The translations under genes were made by a program, and so were the position numbers. From NCBI GenBank assembly GCA_902482185.1, contig CABSZR010000084.1, positions 1-6,480 of the forward strand: DNA of 6,480 nucleotides. The letters run 5' to 3'. The stretch comes from an uncultured Collinsella sp. GTDB lineage: Bacteria > Actinomycetota > Coriobacteriia > Coriobacteriales > Coriobacteriaceae. The notes beneath the pieces are model-generated. The model worked only from the letters and a program-made list of their open reading frames with translations. It searched no databases and was not told where the DNA came from. This document shows positions 1 to 6,480 of this stretch, in pieces; the stretch's first letter is position 1, and each line of letters opens with the position of its first letter.

Positions 1-167
1 TCGACACCGCCGAGTTCGCGATCCCCGGGCTTGACGACGAGTTCCGCGTCATCGTCTCCCCGTGGATTCTGACGGTGCTCGTGACCGACCGCCTGGCTCG
101 CTACTACGAGACGGTCACCAAGCACAACCTCAAGTATCGTCGCTACTATCACCAGTTCGACTACTAA
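1..167 (+). CDS. SIS-domain sugar-phosphate isomerase/deglycase, C-terminal fragment
   Basis: Only the last 54 complete codons are present, in frame from base 3 to the TAA at 165-167; the start lies upstream of the window. The fragment contains a hydrophobic stretch ending VSPWILTVLVTDRLARYYE, then a basic and aromatic tail (KYRRYYHQFDY). This resembles the C-terminus of SIS-domain enzymes of the FrlB/GfrE/GfrF and AgaS type. They act in the cytoplasm on phosphorylated sugars delivered by a PTS, for example cleaving fructoselysine 6-phosphate to glucose 6-phosphate and lysine. The catalytic region is outside the window, so the substrate is not determined. The gene lies 46 bp upstream of the EIIA gene in the same direction, so it is probably the enzyme of this operon. 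The SIS family call is moderately sure; the deglycase role is inferred from context. Confidence 0.6.
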   Translation, partial: DTAEFAIPGLDDEFRVIVSPWILTVLVTDRLARYYETVTKHNLKYRRYYHQFDY

Positions 168-213: not shown

Positions 214-633
214 ATGAGACAGTACATCATCGCCAGCCATGCGCACTTCGCCACCGGCATCAAGGAGAGCGTCGAGCTGCTCTCGGGCGCTCGCGACAAC
301 GTCCACGATCTTTCGATGTTCGTCGATGGCCGCATGGACGTGGCCGAGGAGGCCCAAAAACTGCTGGCAGGCATGTCTGCCGACGATGATGTCGTTGTCT
401 GCACCGACCTCTTTGGCGGTAGCGTTAACAACGAGTTCACCAAGATCGTCCAGACGCGTCCCCGCACGTACCTCGTTACCAACATGAACCTTCCTCTGCT
501 CATCCAGCTGCTGTTCTCTGACGAGTCGGCGCCGGTTGAGGAGACGATTCGCGCCATCGTCTCTGCGGACGATACGCGCGTGAAGTTTGTCAACGATCTT
601 TTGGTCGATGACGAGGAGGAGGAAGAGTTCTAA
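214..633 (+). CDS. PTS mannose-family EIIA component
   Basis: A 139-residue cytoplasmic phosphocarrier, the usual size for a stand-alone EIIA of the mannose (EII-Man) family. It takes phosphate from HPr and passes it to EIIB. The N-terminus MRQYIIASHAHFATGIKES matches the family pattern in which a beta strand leads to the phosphorylated histidine, here His9. TDLFGGS at 64-70 supplies the conserved aspartate (Asp65) and glycines near the active site. The ATG at 214 is preceded by AGAGGA (201-206) at 7 bp, which supports this start. The protein ends in an unusual acidic tail with a final phenylalanine (DDEEEEEF). It lies between the SIS gene and EIIB and is probably co-transcribed with both. 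The family assignment is firm; sugar specificity cannot be read from EIIA. Confidence 0.93.
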   Translation: MRQYIIASHAHFATGIKESVELLSGARDNVHDLSMFVDGRMDVAEEAQKLLAGMSADDDVVVCTDLFGGSVNNEFTKIVQTRPRTYLVTNMNLPLLIQLLFSDESAPVEETIRAIVSADDTRVKFVNDLLVDDEEEEEF

Positions 634-690: not shown

Positions 691-1173
691 ATGATTCAGC
701 TACTTCGCGTTGACCATCGCCTGCTTCATGGCCAGGTCGCAGTTTCCTGGGTTCAGGGCCTTGGCTCCAACTGCATCTTCTGCGTGGGCGATAAGGTCGC
801 TAACGACCCGGTGTGGAAGACGACGCTCAAGATGGGCAAGCCTGCCGGCTGCAAGCTCGTCATCAAAGATATGGAGCATGCAATCGAAGCTATCAACTCG
901 GGCGTGACCGACAAGTACAAGATGATCATCTGCGTCGCCACTATCGCTGAGGCAAAGCAGCTTGTTGAGAGCTGCCCGCAGATCAAGTCGGTCAACCTGG
1001 GCAACACCAAGCCCAAGGACGAGAAGCGTCCCGACGCTCGTCAGGTCTCTCGTCAGATCTTCCTGACCGCGGCCGAGGAAGCCGATGTGCGCGAGATGCT
1101 GGATCGTGGCGTTGAGGTCGAGATTCGACCCCTGGCCGATGACCCCAAGGTCGACTGCGCCAGCGTGCTCTAG
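691..1173 (+). CDS. PTS mannose-family EIIB component
   Basis: A 160-residue cytoplasmic EIIB of the mannose family. It accepts phosphate from EIIA and transfers it to the incoming sugar at the EIIC-EIID channel. The N-terminal motif RVDHRLLHGQV (6-16) is the family hallmark, with the phosphorylated histidine at His13. The usual family form is R-[IV]-D-[DE]-R-L-[IL]-H-G-Q-V, so His9 replaces a common acidic residue. The rest follows the alternating alpha/beta pattern of the domain, including VNLGN near the middle. I chose the ATG at 691 because GGGGGG (678-683) sits 7 bp upstream. An in-frame TTG at 676 would add five residues but overlaps that site. It follows EIIA by 57 bp and precedes EIIC by 58 bp in one operon. 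Confidence 0.93.
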   Translation: MIQLLRVDHRLLHGQVAVSWVQGLGSNCIFCVGDKVANDPVWKTTLKMGKPAGCKLVIKDMEHAIEAINSGVTDKYKMIICVATIAEAKQLVESCPQIKSVNLGNTKPKDEKRPDARQVSRQIFLTAAEEADVREMLDRGVEVEIRPLADDPKVDCASVL

Positions 1174-1231: not shown

Positions 1232-2005
1232 ATGCTTACCCAAGCAATCCTCATCGGACTTATCGCCGCATTTGGTAAGTTCGACTGCCAGCTCGGTACG
1301 CTCTACGCGTTCCGCCCCATCGTCCTGTGCCCGCTCGTGGGCCTGGTGCTGGGGGACCTGCAGTCCGGCCTCGCGATCGGTGCGAGTCTGGAGCTGCTGT
1401 TCATGGGCTCGATCTCCATCGGCGCCTACGTGCCGCCTGATGAGACGATCGGCGGCGTGCTCGCCTGCGCCTTCGCTATCCAGCTGGGCCAGAGCACCGA
1501 GGCAGCCATCGCGCTTGCCATGCCCATCGCCACGCTGTGCCTTGCCATCAAGAACATCCTTAACGCCGCCCTGCCGATCCTGGTCGACCGCGCTGATGTC
1601 TACTCCGGCCAGGGCAACCTTAAGGGTGTCTATGCGATGCACTTCCTGATCGGTTTGACCGGTATCATCATGGCGTTCCTGCTGTGCTCGCTGTCGTTCT
1701 ATCTGGGTGCTGACGCCATCCAGGGCCTGCTCGACTTCATCCCGCCCTTTGTCCTTGCTGGCTTTGGCGTTGCCGCCAACATCCTGCCTGCCATGGGCTT
1801 CGCCATGCTCGGCCGCCTGGTGCTCACCAAGCAGCTCGTGCCCTTCTACTTCCTGGGTTTCCTGCTGTGCTCCTACGCCAACGTGCCCGTCCTGGGCGTC
1901 GCCCTGATCGCCATCATCATCGGCATCGACAAGTTCGACCTGCTCGGCCTGGGCGGAGCCCAGCCCCAGCTCTCCGCGGAAGGGGATGAGGACGATGACT
2001 TCTAG
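1232..2005 (+). CDS. PTS mannose-family EIIC component, copy 1
   Basis: A 257-residue integral membrane protein, normal length for mannose-family EIIC, which forms the sugar channel together with EIID. Family signatures are visible: FRPIVLCPLVGLVLGD (27-42), the GASLEL segment (50-55) and GAYVPPDE (64-71). Several long hydrophobic segments follow (about 73-110, 136-158, 169-195, 203-231). The ATG at 1232 follows AAGGGGG (1221-1227) by 4 bp. The C-terminus is acidic and ends in Phe (EGDEDDDF), and its codons also carry the ribosome binding site of EIID, which overlaps the end by 11 bp. From codon 24 (base 1301) onward the gene is identical to the second EIIC at 4024. The first 23 codons differ, with seven amino acid changes. 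The copy belongs to the SIS-EIIA-EIIB-EIIC-EIID operon. Confidence 0.94.
   Translation: MLTQAILIGLIAAFGKFDCQLGTLYAFRPIVLCPLVGLVLGDLQSGLAIGASLELLFMGSISIGAYVPPDETIGGVLACAFAIQLGQSTEAAIALAMPIATLCLAIKNILNAALPILVDRADVYSGQGNLKGVYAMHFLIGLTGIIMAFLLCSLSFYLGADAIQGLLDFIPPFVLAGFGVAANILPAMGFAMLGRLVLTKQLVPFYFLGFLLCSYANVPVLGVALIAIIIGIDKFDLLGLGGAQPQLSAEGDEDDDF
1978..1991 (+). promoter_or_regulatory. EIID ribosome binding site inside the EIIC tail (copy 1)
   Basis: GGAAGGGG (1978-1985) touches an in-frame ATG at 1986 with no spacing but lies 9 bp from the ATG at 1995, and GAGG (1988-1991) lies 3 bp from it. The start at 1995 (MTSSPENK) is therefore preferred over 1986. This makes an 11-bp overlap with EIIC and suggests translational coupling, which would keep the two membrane subunits equimolar. 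Confidence 0.55.
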
Positions 2006-2819
2006 TCCCGAGAACAAGATCACGCGCTCCGACCTCGTCAAGAGCGCCGTCAACACCGGCGCCCTGGGCATGGAGTTCTCCTGGACCTACTACAAGCAGA
2101 TGAACATCGCCTTCTGCCTGATGGTCGCCAACATGCTCAAGAAGATCTACGCCGGCCGCCCCGACGACTACGCCGCGGCCCTGCACCGCCACTGCGCGTT
2201 CTTCAACATTACCGTCCAGTTCGCCCCGTTCGTCGGCGGCATCGCGATGGCCATGGAGGAGAAGGTCGCCCGCGGCGAGATCGAGCCCGAGAGCGTCAAC
2301 GACGTCAAGGCCGCCCTCATGGGCCCGCTGTCCGGCATCGGCGACTCCATCTTCCTGTCGACGCTGCGCGTGGTCGCCGCCGCGGTGGGCATCAGCCTGT
2401 GCCAGGCCGGCAACCCCTTCGGCCCCATCGCCTTCCTGCTCATCTACAACGTCCCCGGCTTCGCGCTGCGCATCTGGGGCGCCGTCAAGGGCTACGAGCT
2501 GGGCGTTGGCTTCCTGGACGAGGCCCAGAGGACCGGCCTCATGCAGAAGATCATGACCTGCGTGGGCATCGTGGGCGTCATGGTCGTGGGCGCCATGTGC
2601 AAGGACATGTTCTGGGCCAGCATCCCGGTGGCCATCGGCTCGGGCGAGGACGCCCAGACCCTCCAGGACATCCTGGACGGCATCATGCCCGGCATGCTCG
2701 GCATGATCGCCTTCTGGCTGTACTACTGGCTGCTGTCCAAGAAGATCAACCCCATGGTGCTGATCGTGGCCACCATGGTCGTGGGCATCATCGGCGCGTT
2801 CTTCGGCGTGCTGGCGTAA
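1995..2819 (+). CDS. PTS mannose-family EIID component, copy 1
   Basis: A 274-residue protein, typical for EIID, the second membrane subunit of mannose-family permeases and unique to this family. Family marks include an aromatic segment near the N-terminus (EFSWTYYKQMNIAF, 27-40), KKIYAGR (49-55), HRHCAFFNIT (64-73), AMEEK (86-90) and ALMGPLSGIGDSIF (107-120). Hydrophobic segments lie at about 124-136, 144-162, 185-201, 232-247 and 253-273, the last anchoring the C-terminus. After the first few codons almost every codon ends in G or C, with rare exceptions such as one ATT and one GTT. This is much more biased than the neighbouring genes. The whole gene plus 7 bp after its stop is identical to the second EIID. 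It is the last gene of the first operon, followed by a terminator 30 bp on. Confidence 0.94.
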   Translation: MTSSPENKITRSDLVKSAVNTGALGMEFSWTYYKQMNIAFCLMVANMLKKIYAGRPDDYAAALHRHCAFFNITVQFAPFVGGIAMAMEEKVARGEIEPESVNDVKAALMGPLSGIGDSIFLSTLRVVAAAVGISLCQAGNPFGPIAFLLIYNVPGFALRIWGAVKGYELGVGFLDEAQRTGLMQKIMTCVGIVGVMVVGAMCKDMFWASIPVAIGSGEDAQTLQDILDGIMPGMLGMIAFWLYYWLLSKKINPMVLIVATMVVGIIGAFFGVLA

Positions 2820-2849
2820 GGGCCCGACCTATTATCTGCCCCCAAGGGA

Positions 2850-2879
2850 AACGGCGACCCGTTGTGGTCGCCGTTTTTT
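2850..2879 (+). terminator. Intrinsic terminator of the first PTS operon
   Basis: AACGGCGACC (2850-2859) and GGTCGCCGTT (2866-2875) form a perfect 10-bp stem with a 6-nt loop, running into six T residues (2874-2879). It lies 30 bp after the EIID stop and separates the PTS operon from the EamA transporter gene. Its sequence is unrelated to the terminator after the second EIID. Confidence 0.93.
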
Positions 2880-2907
2880 ATTACCGAAAGCTAGTTGGAG
2901 GTGCTTC

Positions 2908-3798
2908 GTGATTCGATCTGACAATCCACCCGATAATGGCGTGAGCGGGGCGATGTATCTATTTGGCACGGCGCTCTTGTGGAGTTTTATCGGCATCCTC
3001 GTTCGCGCCAATTCGCAGTCAGCTCTTTTGATCGGTGCCGTTACGGCAATATTTATGGCGCTCTTTATCCTGCTCGTCGGTAGGCCCGTCCTCCGCGTCA
3101 GCCGTCTTATTGTCCTTGTGGCCGTCTGCAACTTCGTGACGGGCACCACGTTTAACTTTGCCAACCAGCTCACGACGGTCGGCAACGCGATCGTCCTGCA
3201 GTACACCTCGATGATTTTTGTTATCGTGTATCAGTCGCTCGCAACTCGCACGTTGCCCTCGCCTGCGAAGATTGCCTCCGTGTTGGTTGCTTTTACGGGT
3301 ATGGGACTTTTCTTTTTAGGCGATTTGAGCGCCGAGGGCATGCTCGGCAACCTGCTTGCCGTCATTTCGGGAGCCACCTTTGGGCTGTGTTTCTTTTTGA
3401 ACTCTCGCCCCGATGCGTCGCCCATGGTGTCCTCGCTCATCTCCTGCGGTATCTCGATGCTGCCGATCGTCTATTTTGCCGGCGCCCTAGACTCCGTGAG
3501 GCCATTTGAGTGGGGGCTCATGCTGGTGCATGGCCTTTTTTGCAGTGGCCTTGCGAGCGTGCTGTATGCCAAGGGGATCGCGCGAACCAACGCGTTTGCG
3601 GCCAACTTGGTTTGCATGAGCGAGGTCGTGCTCGCTCCCTGCTGGTCGGCGCTCTTCTTTGGCGAGGTCTTTCGCTGGAACGAGTTTTTGGGCGCGGCGA
3701 TTATCGTTTTGGTAATTGTGGCCAACTTGGCATCTGATGCCTTTGGCGATGGCTTTCTGGTGGCGCTTGTCCGCCATCGAAACAAAGAGCGTGCCTAA
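2908..3798 (+). CDS. EamA/DMT-family membrane transporter
   Basis: A 296-residue, very hydrophobic protein with about ten membrane segments arranged as two EamA-like halves (about 14-138 and 146-274). This is the standard length and design of drug/metabolite transporter superfamily exporters and permeases. The second half carries a typical family segment in which a glutamate in SEVVLAP (238-244) is followed by FFGE (250-253). The first half has the equivalent LQYTSMIFVIVY region (98-109). The GTG start at 2908 is supported by GGAGG (2897-2901) at 6 bp. Codon use includes many T-ending codons, unlike the EIID genes on either side, so it has a different compositional history. The gene sits between the two EIIC-EIID copies. 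Substrate unknown; export of an amino acid or metabolite is the usual role of the family but cannot be shown here. Confidence 0.88.
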   Translation: MIRSDNPPDNGVSGAMYLFGTALLWSFIGILVRANSQSALLIGAVTAIFMALFILLVGRPVLRVSRLIVLVAVCNFVTGTTFNFANQLTTVGNAIVLQYTSMIFVIVYQSLATRTLPSPAKIASVLVAFTGMGLFFLGDLSAEGMLGNLLAVISGATFGLCFFLNSRPDASPMVSSLISCGISMLPIVYFAGALDSVRPFEWGLMLVHGLFCSGLASVLYAKGIARTNAFAANLVCMSEVVLAPCWSALFFGEVFRWNEFLGAAIIVLVIVANLASDAFGDGFLVALVRHRNKERA

Positions 3799-3844
3799 TG
3801 GGATGCGCCTGCCGTTTACGGTAAAAAACACCCCGCTGAGCGAC

Positions 3845-3890
3845 TGGTATTAAATAAGGCGAACCTGCATACCTATAATTGGTATCAAAT
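3845..3890 (+). promoter_or_regulatory. Candidate promoter with paired operator-like repeats upstream of EIIC copy 2
   Basis: A perfect -10 hexamer TATAAT lies at 3874-3879. No good -35 is present at the normal spacing; the best candidate near 3850-3856 matches only half the consensus. TGGTATTAAAT (3845-3855), where the -35 would be, and TGGTATCAAAT (3880-3890), just after the -10, are direct repeats matching at 10 of 11 bases. A related perfect palindrome TTGATATCAA lies further down at 3961-3970. This arrangement suggests a regulated promoter bound by a dimeric regulator; no regulator gene is visible in the window. Confidence 0.5.
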
Positions 3891-3895
3891 CATTT

Positions 3896-4023
3896 GTGCC
3901 TGGCATGGGTGTTAGCAGCACACCAGGTACGCTTCGAGCCGTGGAATCGAACTCCCGGAATTGATATCAACAACGCGCGCGACGGGAGTGACGACGGTTC
4001 GAGATTCCTTATTGGGAGGAATT
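3896..4023 (+). promoter_or_regulatory. Structured 5' leader of EIIC copy 2, possible translational switch
   Basis: Several complementary segments lie between the promoter and the start codon. GTGCCT (3896-3901) pairs with AGGTAC (3925-3930), enclosing GGTGT/ACACC (3908-3912/3920-3924). TCGAGCC (3934-3940) pairs with GGTTCGA (3996-4002) with one G-U pair, enclosing ACTCCCG/CGGGAGT (3951-3957/3983-3989). Alternatively GGAATC (3943-3948) pairs with GATTCC (4003-4008), which conflicts with the former. CTCCC (3952-3956) can pair either with GGGAG at 3984-3988 or with the GGGAG of the ribosome binding site (4014-4018). I do not recognise a known riboswitch or antiterminator class. The folding is by eye only. 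Confidence 0.4.
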
Positions 4024-4797
4024 ATGCTTGTCCAAGCAATCCTCGTCGGCTTAGTCGGAGCGTTTGGATGCCTCGACTACCAGCTCGGCACCCTCTACGC
4101 GTTCCGCCCCATCGTCCTGTGCCCGCTCGTGGGCCTGGTGCTGGGGGACCTGCAGTCCGGCCTCGCGATCGGTGCGAGTCTGGAGCTGCTGTTCATGGGC
4201 TCGATCTCCATCGGCGCCTACGTGCCGCCTGATGAGACGATCGGCGGCGTGCTCGCCTGCGCCTTCGCTATCCAGCTGGGCCAGAGCACCGAGGCAGCCA
4301 TCGCGCTTGCCATGCCCATCGCCACGCTGTGCCTTGCCATCAAGAACATCCTTAACGCCGCCCTGCCGATCCTGGTCGACCGCGCTGATGTCTACTCCGG
4401 CCAGGGCAACCTTAAGGGTGTCTATGCGATGCACTTCCTGATCGGTTTGACCGGTATCATCATGGCGTTCCTGCTGTGCTCGCTGTCGTTCTATCTGGGT
4501 GCTGACGCCATCCAGGGCCTGCTCGACTTCATCCCGCCCTTTGTCCTTGCTGGCTTTGGCGTTGCCGCCAACATCCTGCCTGCCATGGGCTTCGCCATGC
4601 TCGGCCGCCTGGTGCTCACCAAGCAGCTCGTGCCCTTCTACTTCCTGGGTTTCCTGCTGTGCTCCTACGCCAACGTGCCCGTCCTGGGCGTCGCCCTGAT
4701 CGCCATCATCATCGGCATCGACAAGTTCGACCTGCTCGGCCTGGGCGGAGCCCAGCCCCAGCTCTCCGCGGAAGGGGATGAGGACGATGACTTCTAG
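4024..4797 (+). CDS. PTS mannose-family EIIC component, copy 2 (orphan pair)
   Basis: A 257-residue membrane channel subunit, the same length as copy 1 and identical from residue 24 to the end. The first 23 residues differ at seven positions relative to copy 1 (T3V, I8V, I11V, A12G, K16C, F17L, C19Y) and at 18 of 69 bases, so the N-terminus comes from a truly diverged paralogue. The ATG at 4024 follows GGGAGGA (4014-4020) by 3 bp; an in-frame TTG at 3961 is rejected because it lacks a ribosome binding site and would add a non-family, non-hydrophobic leader. No EIIA or EIIB gene accompanies this pair; the upstream neighbour is the EamA transporter. It would have to use the EIIA and EIIB at 214-1173 or others elsewhere. 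Expression is probably separate from copy 1 through its own promoter and leader. Confidence 0.93.
   Translation: MLVQAILVGLVGAFGCLDYQLGTLYAFRPIVLCPLVGLVLGDLQSGLAIGASLELLFMGSISIGAYVPPDETIGGVLACAFAIQLGQSTEAAIALAMPIATLCLAIKNILNAALPILVDRADVYSGQGNLKGVYAMHFLIGLTGIIMAFLLCSLSFYLGADAIQGLLDFIPPFVLAGFGVAANILPAMGFAMLGRLVLTKQLVPFYFLGFLLCSYANVPVLGVALIAIIIGIDKFDLLGLGGAQPQLSAEGDEDDDF
4770..4783 (+). promoter_or_regulatory. EIID ribosome binding site inside the EIIC tail (copy 2)
   Basis: This is the exact duplicate of the site at 1978-1991: GGAAGGGG ends 9 bp before the ATG at 4787, within the codons for the acidic EIIC tail. It supports the 4787 start over the ATG at 4778, and coupling of EIID to EIIC. Confidence 0.55.
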
Positions 4798-5611
4798 TCC
4801 CGAGAACAAGATCACGCGCTCCGACCTCGTCAAGAGCGCCGTCAACACCGGCGCCCTGGGCATGGAGTTCTCCTGGACCTACTACAAGCAGATGAACATC
4901 GCCTTCTGCCTGATGGTCGCCAACATGCTCAAGAAGATCTACGCCGGCCGCCCCGACGACTACGCCGCGGCCCTGCACCGCCACTGCGCGTTCTTCAACA
5001 TTACCGTCCAGTTCGCCCCGTTCGTCGGCGGCATCGCGATGGCCATGGAGGAGAAGGTCGCCCGCGGCGAGATCGAGCCCGAGAGCGTCAACGACGTCAA
5101 GGCCGCCCTCATGGGCCCGCTGTCCGGCATCGGCGACTCCATCTTCCTGTCGACGCTGCGCGTGGTCGCCGCCGCGGTGGGCATCAGCCTGTGCCAGGCC
5201 GGCAACCCCTTCGGCCCCATCGCCTTCCTGCTCATCTACAACGTCCCCGGCTTCGCGCTGCGCATCTGGGGCGCCGTCAAGGGCTACGAGCTGGGCGTTG
5301 GCTTCCTGGACGAGGCCCAGAGGACCGGCCTCATGCAGAAGATCATGACCTGCGTGGGCATCGTGGGCGTCATGGTCGTGGGCGCCATGTGCAAGGACAT
5401 GTTCTGGGCCAGCATCCCGGTGGCCATCGGCTCGGGCGAGGACGCCCAGACCCTCCAGGACATCCTGGACGGCATCATGCCCGGCATGCTCGGCATGATC
5501 GCCTTCTGGCTGTACTACTGGCTGCTGTCCAAGAAGATCAACCCCATGGTGCTGATCGTGGCCACCATGGTCGTGGGCATCATCGGCGCGTTCTTCGGCG
5601 TGCTGGCGTAA
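4787..5611 (+). CDS. PTS mannose-family EIID component, copy 2
   Basis: A 274-residue EIID identical to the protein at 1995-2819 and to its DNA, including synonymous positions. It therefore has the same family marks (HRHCAFFNIT at 64-73, ALMGPLSGIGDSIF at 107-120) and the same near-total use of G- or C-ending codons. It overlaps EIIC copy 2 by 11 bp and forms a two-gene unit with it. Complete identity with no synonymous change means the copies were made equal very recently, or that one was assembled from reads of the other. It should pair equally well with either EIIC, since the EIIC difference is confined to the N-terminal 23 residues. It ends 34 bp before a strong terminator stem. Confidence 0.94.
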   Translation: MTSSPENKITRSDLVKSAVNTGALGMEFSWTYYKQMNIAFCLMVANMLKKIYAGRPDDYAAALHRHCAFFNITVQFAPFVGGIAMAMEEKVARGEIEPESVNDVKAALMGPLSGIGDSIFLSTLRVVAAAVGISLCQAGNPFGPIAFLLIYNVPGFALRIWGAVKGYELGVGFLDEAQRTGLMQKIMTCVGIVGVMVVGAMCKDMFWASIPVAIGSGEDAQTLQDILDGIMPGMLGMIAFWLYYWLLSKKINPMVLIVATMVVGIIGAFFGVLA

Positions 5612-5645
5612 GGGCCCGGCTGCATAGATTTTCGTTGCAACCTGG

Positions 5646-5702: not shown

Positions 5703-6480
5703 ATGTTCGCGAAGGATCGCGAAGCAATGCGCCTGACGCCGGCAGAGGTCAGGCTGATTCTTATTGAGTCCCTGCAGTGGTGCGCCAACAACGCGGTCTA
5801 CTTTTTGGGGCTTATCGGTGCGGCCACGTATGATCTGGCCGGCACGGCCTTTTTGGTTGCCGCCATTACGCTCGCGCGCAATCTTATGACGTCGGTGGGC
5901 AATATGGTGTCGGGCTCGGTCATCGACCGCTTTGGACCGCGCCGGACGTCATTTGTGACGTGCGTGATTACGGCGGTGCTATCGCTTGGCGTGGGGTTGG
6001 CGCCGTTGTCTGTCCCCGGGCTTGTGTTTGCCGCGTGCGTCTTGGGACTTGCGGGCGGCTTTATCAACACCTGCACGCATGCGTTTCCGGGATACCTGGA
6101 GTCGACCACCGAGGGCCGTACCCGCGTGAACGGTCTCATGGTGTTCTACAGCAATATCGCCTATACCGCTGGCCCGCTGCTCGGCGGTGCCATCGTGAGC
6201 TGTTTTGCCACGCAATCGGTCTATCTGCTCATGGCGGGCATGATGGGTGTGGCGGCCGTGCTCTCCTTGGGCTGTCACGAGTGTGTTGCTCCCGCAAAAG
6301 GGGAGAAGCCGAAGGGCGGTATTCTGGGCGGCATGGCCGAGGGCGCGCGACTTACGTTTCGCGACCACGACTTGCGCCTCATCTTTATCTCGGGCTTTTT
6401 GGGTTTCTTTGCGTTCGGCGCGTTCGATTCGCTTGAGTCGTTGTTCTACCGCGATGTGCTCAACGTGGATATCGTCTGGC
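5703..6480 (+). CDS. MFS transporter, N-terminal part (runs off the window)
   Basis: The reading frame is open from the ATG at 5703 to the end of the window, giving 259 codons, so the C-terminal third or more is missing. AAGGAG (5692-5697) lies 5 bp before the start. Five or six hydrophobic segments are visible (about 29-42, 48-66, 83-103, 105-124, 145-165, 168-186), followed by a hydrophilic central loop (about 192-225) and the start of the second six-helix bundle (near 228-240). GSVIDRFGPRR at 71-81 matches motif A of the major facilitator superfamily, between helices 2 and 3. This indicates a proton-coupled exporter or symporter; the substrate is not identifiable. Codon use is mixed, like the EamA gene and unlike EIID. 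A terminator separates it from the PTS genes, so it is probably a separate unit, although no clear promoter is seen. Confidence 0.85.
   Translation, partial: MFAKDREAMRLTPAEVRLILIESLQWCANNAVYFLGLIGAATYDLAGTAFLVAAITLARNLMTSVGNMVSGSVIDRFGPRRTSFVTCVITAVLSLGVGLAPLSVPGLVFAACVLGLAGGFINTCTHAFPGYLESTTEGRTRVNGLMVFYSNIAYTAGPLLGGAIVSCFATQSVYLLMAGMMGVAAVLSLGCHECVAPAKGEKPKGGILGGMAEGARLTFRDHDLRLIFISGFLGFFAFGAFDSLESLFYRDVLNVDIVW

Follow-up and report, generated by a model that had tools for sequence, protein, structure and literature searches.

Bacterial multicopy genes such as the rRNA operons are described as evolving in concert by intragenomic gene conversion (PMC8022953), and for Mycobacterium tuberculosis the available text of two papers describes gene conversion between protein-coding paralogues which is easily missed by short reads (PMC12046097, PMC13061034). 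Lassalle et al. 2015 (PMC4450053) is described as relating, over many species, the GC content of genes to signs of recombination. Among sugar transporters, the gfrABCDEF genes of Salmonella are described as a phosphotransferase system (PTS) for fructoselysine and glucoselysine (PMC12675984). Here we analyzed a stretch of 6,480 bp (the window), which carries two EIIC-EIID gene pairs of a mannose-family PTS; the window strain is a member of the Collinsella aerofaciens group.

The locus resembles the rRNA case, as far as that case is described in PMC8022953, in that conversion keeps the copies within a genome alike; it differs in being a protein-coding pair in which homogenisation covers one gene plus the 3′ end of its neighbour, and in that eight relatives share a boundary near codon 178 of EIIC with a diverged module upstream of it. 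With the M. tuberculosis case, as described in PMC12046097 and PMC13061034, it shares intragenomic conversion between bacterial paralogues, in other genes and another species. The likeness to the picture in PMC4450053 is that recombining genes are richer in G+C, the difference being that here the signal would sit in one zone within an operon, for which single-copy orthologues serve as controls. As in the description of gfrABCDEF (PMC12675984), mannose-family EIIA, EIIB, EIIC and EIID occur, here with candidate deglycase genes; unlike that description, the regulator of the present locus is of the GntR-UTRA type, an epimerase gene resembling FrlC follows downstream, a further EIIC-EIID pair is preceded by a leader of its own, and the deglycase candidates do not reach the family cut-offs.

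The genes of the window are as follows.

3..167, + strand, 3′ end of a SIS-domain protein gene, truncated at the window edge (open frame)
214..633, + strand, EIIA, mannose-family PTS (PF03610, 63 bits against a cut-off of 21.4)
691..1173, + strand, EIIB, mannose-family PTS (PF03830, 144.6 bits against 27)
1232..2005, + strand, EIIC copy 1, the likely donor (PF03609, 218 bits against 26.3; clusters with C1 of the relatives)
1986..2819, + strand, EIID copy 1 (PF03613, 283.6 bits against 25)
2908..3798, + strand, EamA-type transporter between the copies (PF00892, 66.6 bits)
4024..4797, + strand, EIIC copy 2, the likely recipient, chimeric in the window strain (PF03609, 216.6 bits against 26.3)
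4778..5611, + strand, EIID copy 2, same sequence as EIID copy 1
5703..6480, + strand, MFS transporter gene, truncated by the window end (PF07690, 70.1 bits)

All four PTS components score above the Pfam gathering scores of the mannose/fructose/sorbose family; for EIID the scan was done on copy 1 only, copy 2 being identical. The frame of EIID copy 1 overlaps the end of EIIC and has an alternative start, the ATG at 1995. No specific named PTS subfamily is claimed because the NCBIfam subfamily and equivalog cut-offs are not reached (EIIC at best 170.4 against 300, EIID 188 against 292.75). EIIC and EIID are sequence relatives of solved mannose-PTS complexes (6k1h, 7dyr, 7vlx, 8hfs, 7xno, 7xtg and 9wjr), EIIC matching those chains at only 74-100 bits, and no solved structure of this EIIC/EIID subfamily was found. 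EIIA and EIIB, which are present once in the locus, would serve both membrane pairs.

The coordinates first given for the repeat, 1301/4093 to 2826/5618 (1526 bp), proved exact, with the first mismatch after it at 2827. The aligned copies differ at 0/685 positions over 1301-1985 and at 0/834 over 1986-2819, and an identity of 1526 bp cannot be chance. The identity of about 74% described for the first 69 bp of EIIC was also confirmed (18/69 positions differ in 1232-1300), as was the lack of similarity of the leaders and downstream spacers, for which the repeat finder lists no joining repeat of at least 20 bp; the shared sequence begins at 1223/4015, 9 bp ahead of the start codons. The two EIIC proteins have seven residue differences, all within the first 19, and because they differ only there, EIIC2 of the window is predicted to no longer have a function of its own.

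The preliminary description had read the whole repeat as one recent conversion of one paralogue by the other. Conversion between the paralogues is supported, in the direction from copy 1 to copy 2, but a single recent tract of 1526 bp was rejected, most of the stretch being near-identical between copies in relatives too. The comparison set consisted of nine related two-copy genomes, eight of them unconverted (native) and the ninth L002. EIIC1 and EIIC2 of the eight natives differ by 17-19 positions in the 5′ 69 bp and by 115-130 bp over 1301-1985, and in 8/8 the divergence ends at 1765-1789; their EIID copies differ by 0-1, excepting L059 (4/731, beside an N gap). Over 1301-1765, 80 sites are fixed between the loci in the natives. 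EIID and the 3′ end of EIIC are homogenised group-wide, and not in the window strain alone, because 1766-2819 is near-identical in all nine two-copy relatives: the copies differ by 0-3/1054 in the seven gap-free relatives, and by 5/950 and 1/727 in the gapped L059 and L060. Copies are more alike within than between genomes in this zone, where, of the variable sites, 24 have the same state in both copies of every genome, 11 do not, and 0 are fixed between loci. Both single-contig chromosomes agree, their copies differing by 1 and 3 over 1766-2819, and four EIID sites vary between these genomes and are equal within each. A contrary site is 2819, at which the same copy-to-copy difference occurs in 4/10 genomes. 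The tract is composite, with the following parts.

1301..1765, + strand, copy 1 stretch that is the likely donor in the conversion specific to the window (5′ end anywhere in 1301-1363)
1766..2826, + strand, group-wide homogenised zone in copy 1 (EIIC 3′ end and EIID, with 7 bp more in the window strain)
4024..4092, + strand, EIIC2 5′ end left unconverted (same sequence as C2 of L004, L053, L054 and L059)
4093..4557, + strand, window-specific converted stretch of EIIC2 (5′ end anywhere in 4093-4155)
4558..5618, + strand, group-wide homogenised zone in copy 2 (from copy comparison with relatives)

The trees follow this division. Grouping by strain from codon 24 of EIIC onward and by locus before it had been predicted, and the window strain behaves so, while eight relatives switch at about codons 178-186. 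The tree of 1301-1765 is split by locus, except for copy 2 of the window and of L002, and in the tree of 1766-2819 the copies cluster by genome or remain unresolved. An AU test over 1766-2819 rejected holding all ten copy-2 rows together (p-AU 8.8e-46); it decides that ten-row constraint only, and the other groupings rest on the trees. Short-read assemblies and gene trees can mislead at this locus, since EIID trees track the genome and EIIC trees mostly the locus.

In the window's own extension of 402-465 bp, copy 1 is likely the donor and EIIC2 the recipient because EIIC2 has the copy-1 state at 80/80 of the locus-diagnostic sites over 1301-1765, these sites being taken from the eight unconverted relatives. 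Over 1232-1300 EIIC2 carries the copy-2 sequence of the group, and nine C2 rows, its own among them, form a clade there (100/100). The tract end earlier placed at codon 24 stands as an outer limit and not as an exact point; the true end lies in codons 24-44, because native C1 and C2 next differ consistently only at 1364. EIIC2 chimeras like that of the window, with other breakpoints, occur among the matches listed in the public proteins P0094, P0016 and P0127, whose source contigs are mostly short and can be chimeric. L002 has 1/62 copy-to-copy differences in the 5′ part, 0 over EIIC 1301-1985 and 1 in EIID; its longer conversion could share ancestry with that of the window, the two being nearest neighbours.

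The best explanation, to which we give a probability of about 0.88, is that gene conversion from copy 1 overwrote the body of EIIC2 and so lengthened a zone, centred on EIID, which is likely homogenised recurrently. Its observed basis is the layout of the locus, the composite tract, copies that cluster by genome over 1766-2819 but by locus ahead of that zone, and an EIIC2 body in the window with the copy-1 state. The conversion would be intragenomic and of RecA type, and the drop in homology near codon 178 would be its usual stop. EIIC2 clusters with Olsenella-type EIIC (93/96) and EIID with Collinsella (98/97); EIIC2 is probably a mosaic, its first two thirds being of Olsenella/Atopobiaceae type and joined to a resident EIIC end and EIID. 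Gene conversion between paralogues is already known; here the part kept common (EIID and the EIIC end) and the part left free (EIIC codons 1-178) can be seen side by side, and in the window strain the difference between EIIC1 and EIIC2 has apparently just been erased.

The same identity would arise if an assembler had put one EIIC-EIID sequence into both places. Short-read assemblers can render near-identical copies identical, these repeats are interrupted by N gaps in five related drafts (L001, L002, L004, L011 and L012), and the exact window junction was absent from all 260 loci examined and from the viral contigs searched. Such an artefact is nevertheless improbable: a native EIIC2 body, about 20% off EIIC1, should assemble separately (native C2 alleles are 20.5-21.2% different over 1301-1880), similar EIIC2 chimeras exist in L002, P0094 and P0016, and two single-contig chromosomes carry the two-copy locus with EIIDs differing by 1/834, one of them resolving five near-identical 5.5-kb repeats, of rRNA-operon length, in its first 2.0 Mb. 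Still less probable is horizontal allelic replacement, in which a copy-1-type body came from another strain and not from the strain's own copy 1. The single-copy alleles of these genes fall into more than one clade, and the C2 alleles are patchy; both fit such inter-strain exchange, but C1 of the window equals C2 over 1526 bp while C1 of 12 other genomes is 0.86-5.9% off that of the window over 1301-1880.

Conversion from copy 1 also has to be set against a recent tandem duplication, without conversion, onto which a foreign or diverged 5′ end was joined. The grouping of the first two thirds of EIIC2 with Olsenella-type EIIC speaks for it, as a foreign-resident join is probably in the ancestry of EIIC2. 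As a substitute for conversion, we consider such a duplication very unlikely indeed, the most remote of these accounts, for the duplication is old (the copy 2 flanks, leader and EamA neighbour are the same in 9 relatives) and EIID copies still cluster by genome, which contradicts a plain duplication. The EamA gene had zero DNA matches at E 1e-5 in the 2 single-copy and 4 outgroup genomes searched. In the 1301-1765 DNA tree the outgroup L058 stands beside the C2 rows, so that any age or source given to the C2 module is provisional.

The homogenised zone is also unusual in composition at third codon positions. After codon 7, 0/270 EIID codons end in A or T in both single-contig chromosomes, and 5/277 do so in EIID copy 1 of the window, against 260/1467 (18%) in six genes which we take, by their sequence starts, to be ribosomal and elongation proteins. 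On the C. aerofaciens branch the fixed third-position changes, AT-to-GC against GC-to-AT, are 8:0 in the zone and 5:12 in the EIIC 5′ part and EIIB (Fisher p 0.0016, with small numbers and EIIA left out), so that the AT-to-GC excess is confined to the converted zone, as expected of GC-biased gene conversion. Of the 62 ORFs reaching GC3 of 0.92 or more in 2.0 Mb of one chromosome, 56 fall within near-identical repeats, by unfiltered ORF counts; a count filtered by GC3 > GC1 (12/16 against 3/1046) was set aside, as the filter favours the result. Biased conversion is a plausible cause of the saturation in EIID. The wider proposal, that repeat repair in Collinsella is strongly GC-biased and drives GC3 towards saturation wherever a near-identical twin exists, is tentative and somewhat short of an even chance. 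Besides EIID, an arginine deiminase pair and unrelated transposase families are named as cases of such twin-linked saturation.

For GC3 alone, codon selection or a high-GC origin could act in place of biased conversion, and we hold this to be close to an even chance, on the lower side. High GC3 without a close twin is seen in ArcC, with GC3 of 0.987 (L260) and 0.975 (L254), each genome having a single match, and of 1.000 in L259, where the second match is only 88% alike; single-copy ArcA reaches 0.966, and the one apparently unduplicated EIID of G027 has 0.932. GGG and CGG are avoided in EIID and likewise in the ribosomal/elongation genes, insertion sequences may derive from high-GC hosts, EIID is already slightly richer in G/C in the outgroup L056 (43/270 codons A/T-ending against 43/178 in the EIIC 5′ part, p 0.037), and the segregating EIID sites, 8 AT-to-GC (none at a third position) and 9 GC-to-AT, have no clear bias. 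Against these causes stand the 18% of A/T-ending codons in the ribosomal/elongation genes beside the 0/270 of EIID, GC3 of only 0.74-0.82 in EIIA, EIIB and EIIC codons 1-178 of the same operon, and the placement of EIID with Collinsella; moreover, EIID of the nearest single-copy relatives (L008, L009, L010 and L013) has GC3 of just 0.83-0.86, about 16% A/T-ending. If biased conversion is the cause, an issue so far argued on genome-wide averages could be put to the test at a single locus that brings its own controls, and bacterial GC-biased gene conversion would have a direct natural test in the EIIC-EIID locus. Among the papers listed in the literature searches, which cover few subscription journals, none dealt with this locus or with saturated GC3 in paired bacterial paralogues.

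The second pair may also be regulated separately, as the following predicted elements suggest.

3799..4023, + strand, copy 2 leader with its own predicted regulated promoter
3845..3855, + strand, predicted operator-like site TGGTATTAAAT
3874..3879, + strand, TATAAT, a possible −10 element read off the sequence, touching the second operator-like site
3880..3890, + strand, predicted operator-like site TGGTATCAAAT

The two operator-like sites are exact and 35 bp apart in the window, and two sites were found in 0/200 shuffles with one mismatch allowed; the motif recurs ahead of the first gene of the operon in relatives. A consensus promoter scan did not report the TATAAT at 3874..3879 and gave 1 hit against 1.8 expected, a weak result. 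An RNA element in the leaders was rejected, the sole Rfam match being mir-718 (E 0.3, under the gathering score) in the MFS gene. The copy 2 leader partially aligns with the EIIB-EIIC spacer of the single-copy outgroups L056 and L057. The A-B-C1-D1 operon and the C2-D2 pair are predicted to be controlled by one GntR-type regulator via separate promoters, and the predicted substrate is an Amadori sugar such as fructoselysine or glucoselysine; these assignments of function, regulation and substrate are based on homology, with scores below the NCBIfam cut-offs. The full-length counterpart of the 3..167 gene in L054 is a SIS protein whose top NCBIfam match is fructoselysine-6-P deglycase, far under the cut-off; the scores in the L054 locus are 76.3 against 430 bits for FrlB-like and 150.5 against 305 for FrlC-like. 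In the same genus, Wolf et al. 2019 reportedly connected Collinsella intestinalis with fructoselysine.

The window is placed by its best matches in the C. aerofaciens group of Collinsella. Its genes are listed below with position and strand; copy 1 (EIIC1 and EIID1) and copy 2 (EIIC2 and EIID2) are mannose-family PTS membrane genes.

214-633, +, EIIA
691-1173, +, EIIB
1232-2005, +, EIIC1
1986-2819, +, EIID1
2908-3798, +, EamA transporter
4024-4797, +, EIIC2
4778-5611, +, EIID2
5703 onward, +, MFS gene, start only

The repeat coordinates of the preliminary description were exact, as EIIC1 and EIIC2 differ at 18 of the 69 positions at the 5′ end and thereafter at none over 1526 bp. This identity had been ascribed to a likely conversion of one paralogue by the other. 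Conversion is well supported, and its direction and a bounded breakpoint can be added, but the tract did not arise as one separate event: the conversion in the window is, with good support, an extension of a zone homogenised across the group. The case belongs to a known kind of process, as a novel form, and what makes it worth pursuing is the saturation of GC3 (the share of codons ending in G or C).

The similarity search with the window gave 48 loci, and an EIIC-EIID query matched 19 of the 43 genomes of the genus (E 1e-50). The two-copy layout was found in nine relatives (L001, L002, L003, L004, L006, L053, L054, L059 and L060; L059 and L060 are the same loci as L012 and L011), of which L053 and L054 come from chromosomes represented by single contigs (2.31 and 2.25 Mb). 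Three loci (L005, L055 and L061, the last also fetched as L007) have one copy-1-type pair, joined directly to the spacer normally found downstream of copy 2, with the MFS gene next. The outgroups (L008, L009/L057, L010, L056 and L013/L058) are single copy, with DNA identity of about 80-87%. Copy-2 positions are compared in copy-1 numbering, and the eight two-copy relatives with an unconverted EIIC2 are called natives.

The eight natives have 115-130 mismatches between EIIC1 and EIIC2 over 684-685 positions, the last of them at 1765-1789. In the zone that follows (1766-2819, the EIIC 3′ end and EIID) the copies show 0-3 differences per 1054 positions in the seven gap-free relatives (1 and 3 in the single-contig chromosomes L053 and L054), and 5/950 in L059 and 1/727 in L060 beside N gaps. 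The last base of the zone, 2819 in the EIID stop codon, is already unlike between copies in L002, L004, L053 and L054. Among the variable sites of the zone, 24 show no difference between the two copies within any genome, 11 are unlike in one or more genomes and none separates the loci consistently; over 1301-1765, 80 sites are fixed between loci in the natives, 91 are otherwise variable and none is concerted. L053 and L054 differ from each other at EIID sites 2472, 2649, 2706 and 2790 and match within each genome, and site 2819 differs by locus in both. The trees of the zone and of the upstream EIIC part agree with these counts, with the unexpected placement of outgroup L058 beside the copy-2 rows in the 1301-1765 tree (98/92), and a constraint joining all ten copy-2 rows in the zone was rejected (p-AU 8.8e-46, with two groups of identical rows unconstrained). 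A stretch of 106 bp of EIIC (1880-1985) has the same sequence in all ten copy-2 rows and in copy 1 of the window, in contrast with EIIC1 over 1301-1880, where divergence between genomes reaches 5.9%. EIIC2 of L003 and L059 forms a second allele class, 7.6-10.9% from other native alleles over 1301-1880, with ordinary EIIC1, and the native-type EIIC2 of L004 has an in-frame stop at about codon 163 (pseudogene or assembly error).

EIIC2 of the window equals the native alleles through 1300 and has the copy-1 state afterwards at 80 of 80 fixed sites, the first being 1364, so that the breakpoint lies within 1301-1363; copy 1 is the donor and copy 2 the recipient. A longer conversion (80/80 sites, all of EIIC2 except the first few codons) was found in L002, but it may not be an independent case, because an N gap covers the start of EIIC1 there and L002 is the nearest neighbour of the window. 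The exact window junction was absent from all 260 fetched loci and from the viral contigs searched. At least 168 proteins were collected, and 50 passed the similarity filter; among the matches listed, the EIIC end was of C. aerofaciens type in 26 of these, and the other 24 were Atopobiaceae-like. The 26 include, among the matches listed, three window-like chimeras (P0094, P0127 and P0016, whose additional N-terminal residues resemble a frame read from leader 2) and mosaics that break elsewhere (P0003, P0009, P0011-P0015 and P0017). Most of these proteins are on short contigs, so some may be assembly chimeras. The listed clusters are of 2433 members for the copy-1 type (P0093) and 1410 and 385 for the copy-2 type (P0001 and P0002).

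EIIC2 is probably a mosaic, because it groups with EIIC of the Olsenella/Atopobiaceae type (93/96) and EIID groups with Collinsella (98/97); codons 88-178 of the L054 EIIC2 share 76% identity with Olsenella L015 and 63% with EIIC1. The copy-2 leader aligns partially to the EIIB-EIIC spacer of outgroups L056 and L057, and has two TGGTATYAAAT sites 35 bp apart. One such site lies upstream of the first operon gene in L053-L055 (with one mismatch in L053), and a weaker half-site was spotted by eye about 35 bp upstream of it.

TGGTATYAAAT sites of the copy-2 leader and first operon gene: window 3845-3890; L054 oriented 781 and 6734-6779

In L054 there is a GntR-UTRA gene upstream, the motif is a likely (predicted) regulon operator, and we infer a shared regulator for the first operon gene and copy 2. 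A fructoselysine-type substrate is a guess, as the resemblance of the L054 SIS and epimerase genes to fructoselysine enzymes is below model cut-offs; PMC9749803 names Collinsella as one of the genera that may take part in fructoselysine degradation. Two related deglycase-like SIS genes flank the PTS locus (L054 oriented 1995-3056, GC3 0.935, and 9905-11038), and L053 has a second, single-copy EIIA-EIIB-EIIC-EIID set downstream (oriented 11197-13774; EIID GC3 0.74).

In a comparison of 12 loci the three single-copy alleles do not fall into a single clade (p-AU 3.4e-7 for EIIA+EIIB+EIIC1, 0.0004 for MFS and 0.008 for both sets joined). This scatter fits, and from the trees suggests, repeated deletion between direct repeats; exchange between strains could also explain it.

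EIID has GC3 of 0.975-0.989 in 14 of 56 rows, those of the C. aerofaciens group (L011, which contains N, was left out); the remaining 42 rows have 0.200-0.916. A/T-ending codons number 3 of 277 in L053 and L054, all in codons 5-7 at the EIIC overlap, 5 in the window, and 46 and 43 in outgroups L056 and L057. EIIA, EIIB and EIIC codons 1-178 show no shift on this scale (0.74-0.82 within the group and 0.74-0.87 for L056/L057). The EIIC 3′ part is also richer (3-5 of 73 A/T-ending codons versus 11-12 in the outgroup), and the step at EIID is sharper than the one within EIIC, because the EIIC 3′ part is already partly rich in the outgroup. Other EIIDs of the genomes G027 and G011 have GC3 of 0.59-0.93, with 0.932 as the exception. 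Six G027 genes, presumably ribosomal and elongation genes, have 260 A/T-ending codons in 1467 versus 0 in 270 for EIID after codon 7. On the C. aerofaciens branch, the third-position changes that became fixed number 8 AT-to-GC against 0 GC-to-AT in the zone, compared with 5 against 12 for the EIIC 5′ part and EIIB taken together; segregating EIID sites (8 AT-to-GC versus 9 GC-to-AT) count against biased conversion.

A survey of the first 2.0 Mb of G027 (2.25 Mb in all) took every ORF of 200 codons or more without filtering, antisense frames included. GC3 was at least 0.92 in 62 of 2402 ORFs, of which 56 lie at least half within repeats (≥95% identity over 400 bp) versus 157 of the 2340 others, counts that are not independent, many ORFs being copies of one element and antisense frames being included. 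Among the 62 are EIID, ArcA (arginine deiminase), one ArcC (carbamate kinase) and transposase-like families. ArcA behaves like EIID: 13 genomes have two full-length near-identical copies (bit scores equal in nine, 4-5 bits apart in four), and among 30 loci examined out of 55 matches, GC3 was 0.973-0.983 in 13 loci of two-copy genomes. Two close one-match genomes gave 0.971 and 0.976, and the 15 more distant ArcA loci, including L229 with its second match at 68%, spanned 0.821-0.966. ArcC is matched only once in 39 of the 43 genomes, and in 30 loci examined its GC3 was 0.956-0.987 in three one-match genomes and 1.000 in L259. Biased conversion is therefore a plausible cause, not a demonstrated one, as ArcC is high in one-match genomes and codon selection or high-GC donors remain as explanations.

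In the surveyed part of G027, GC3 is very high in near-identical multicopy ORFs, among them transposase-like ORFs from unrelated families; neighbouring genes at 169222-171617, one of them an EIID, are an exception, with GC3 of 0.93-0.95 and no near-identical twin seen. The G027 ArcA tandem pair (1581952-1583193 and 1585041-1586282, GC3 0.98) is a second candidate for the same process.
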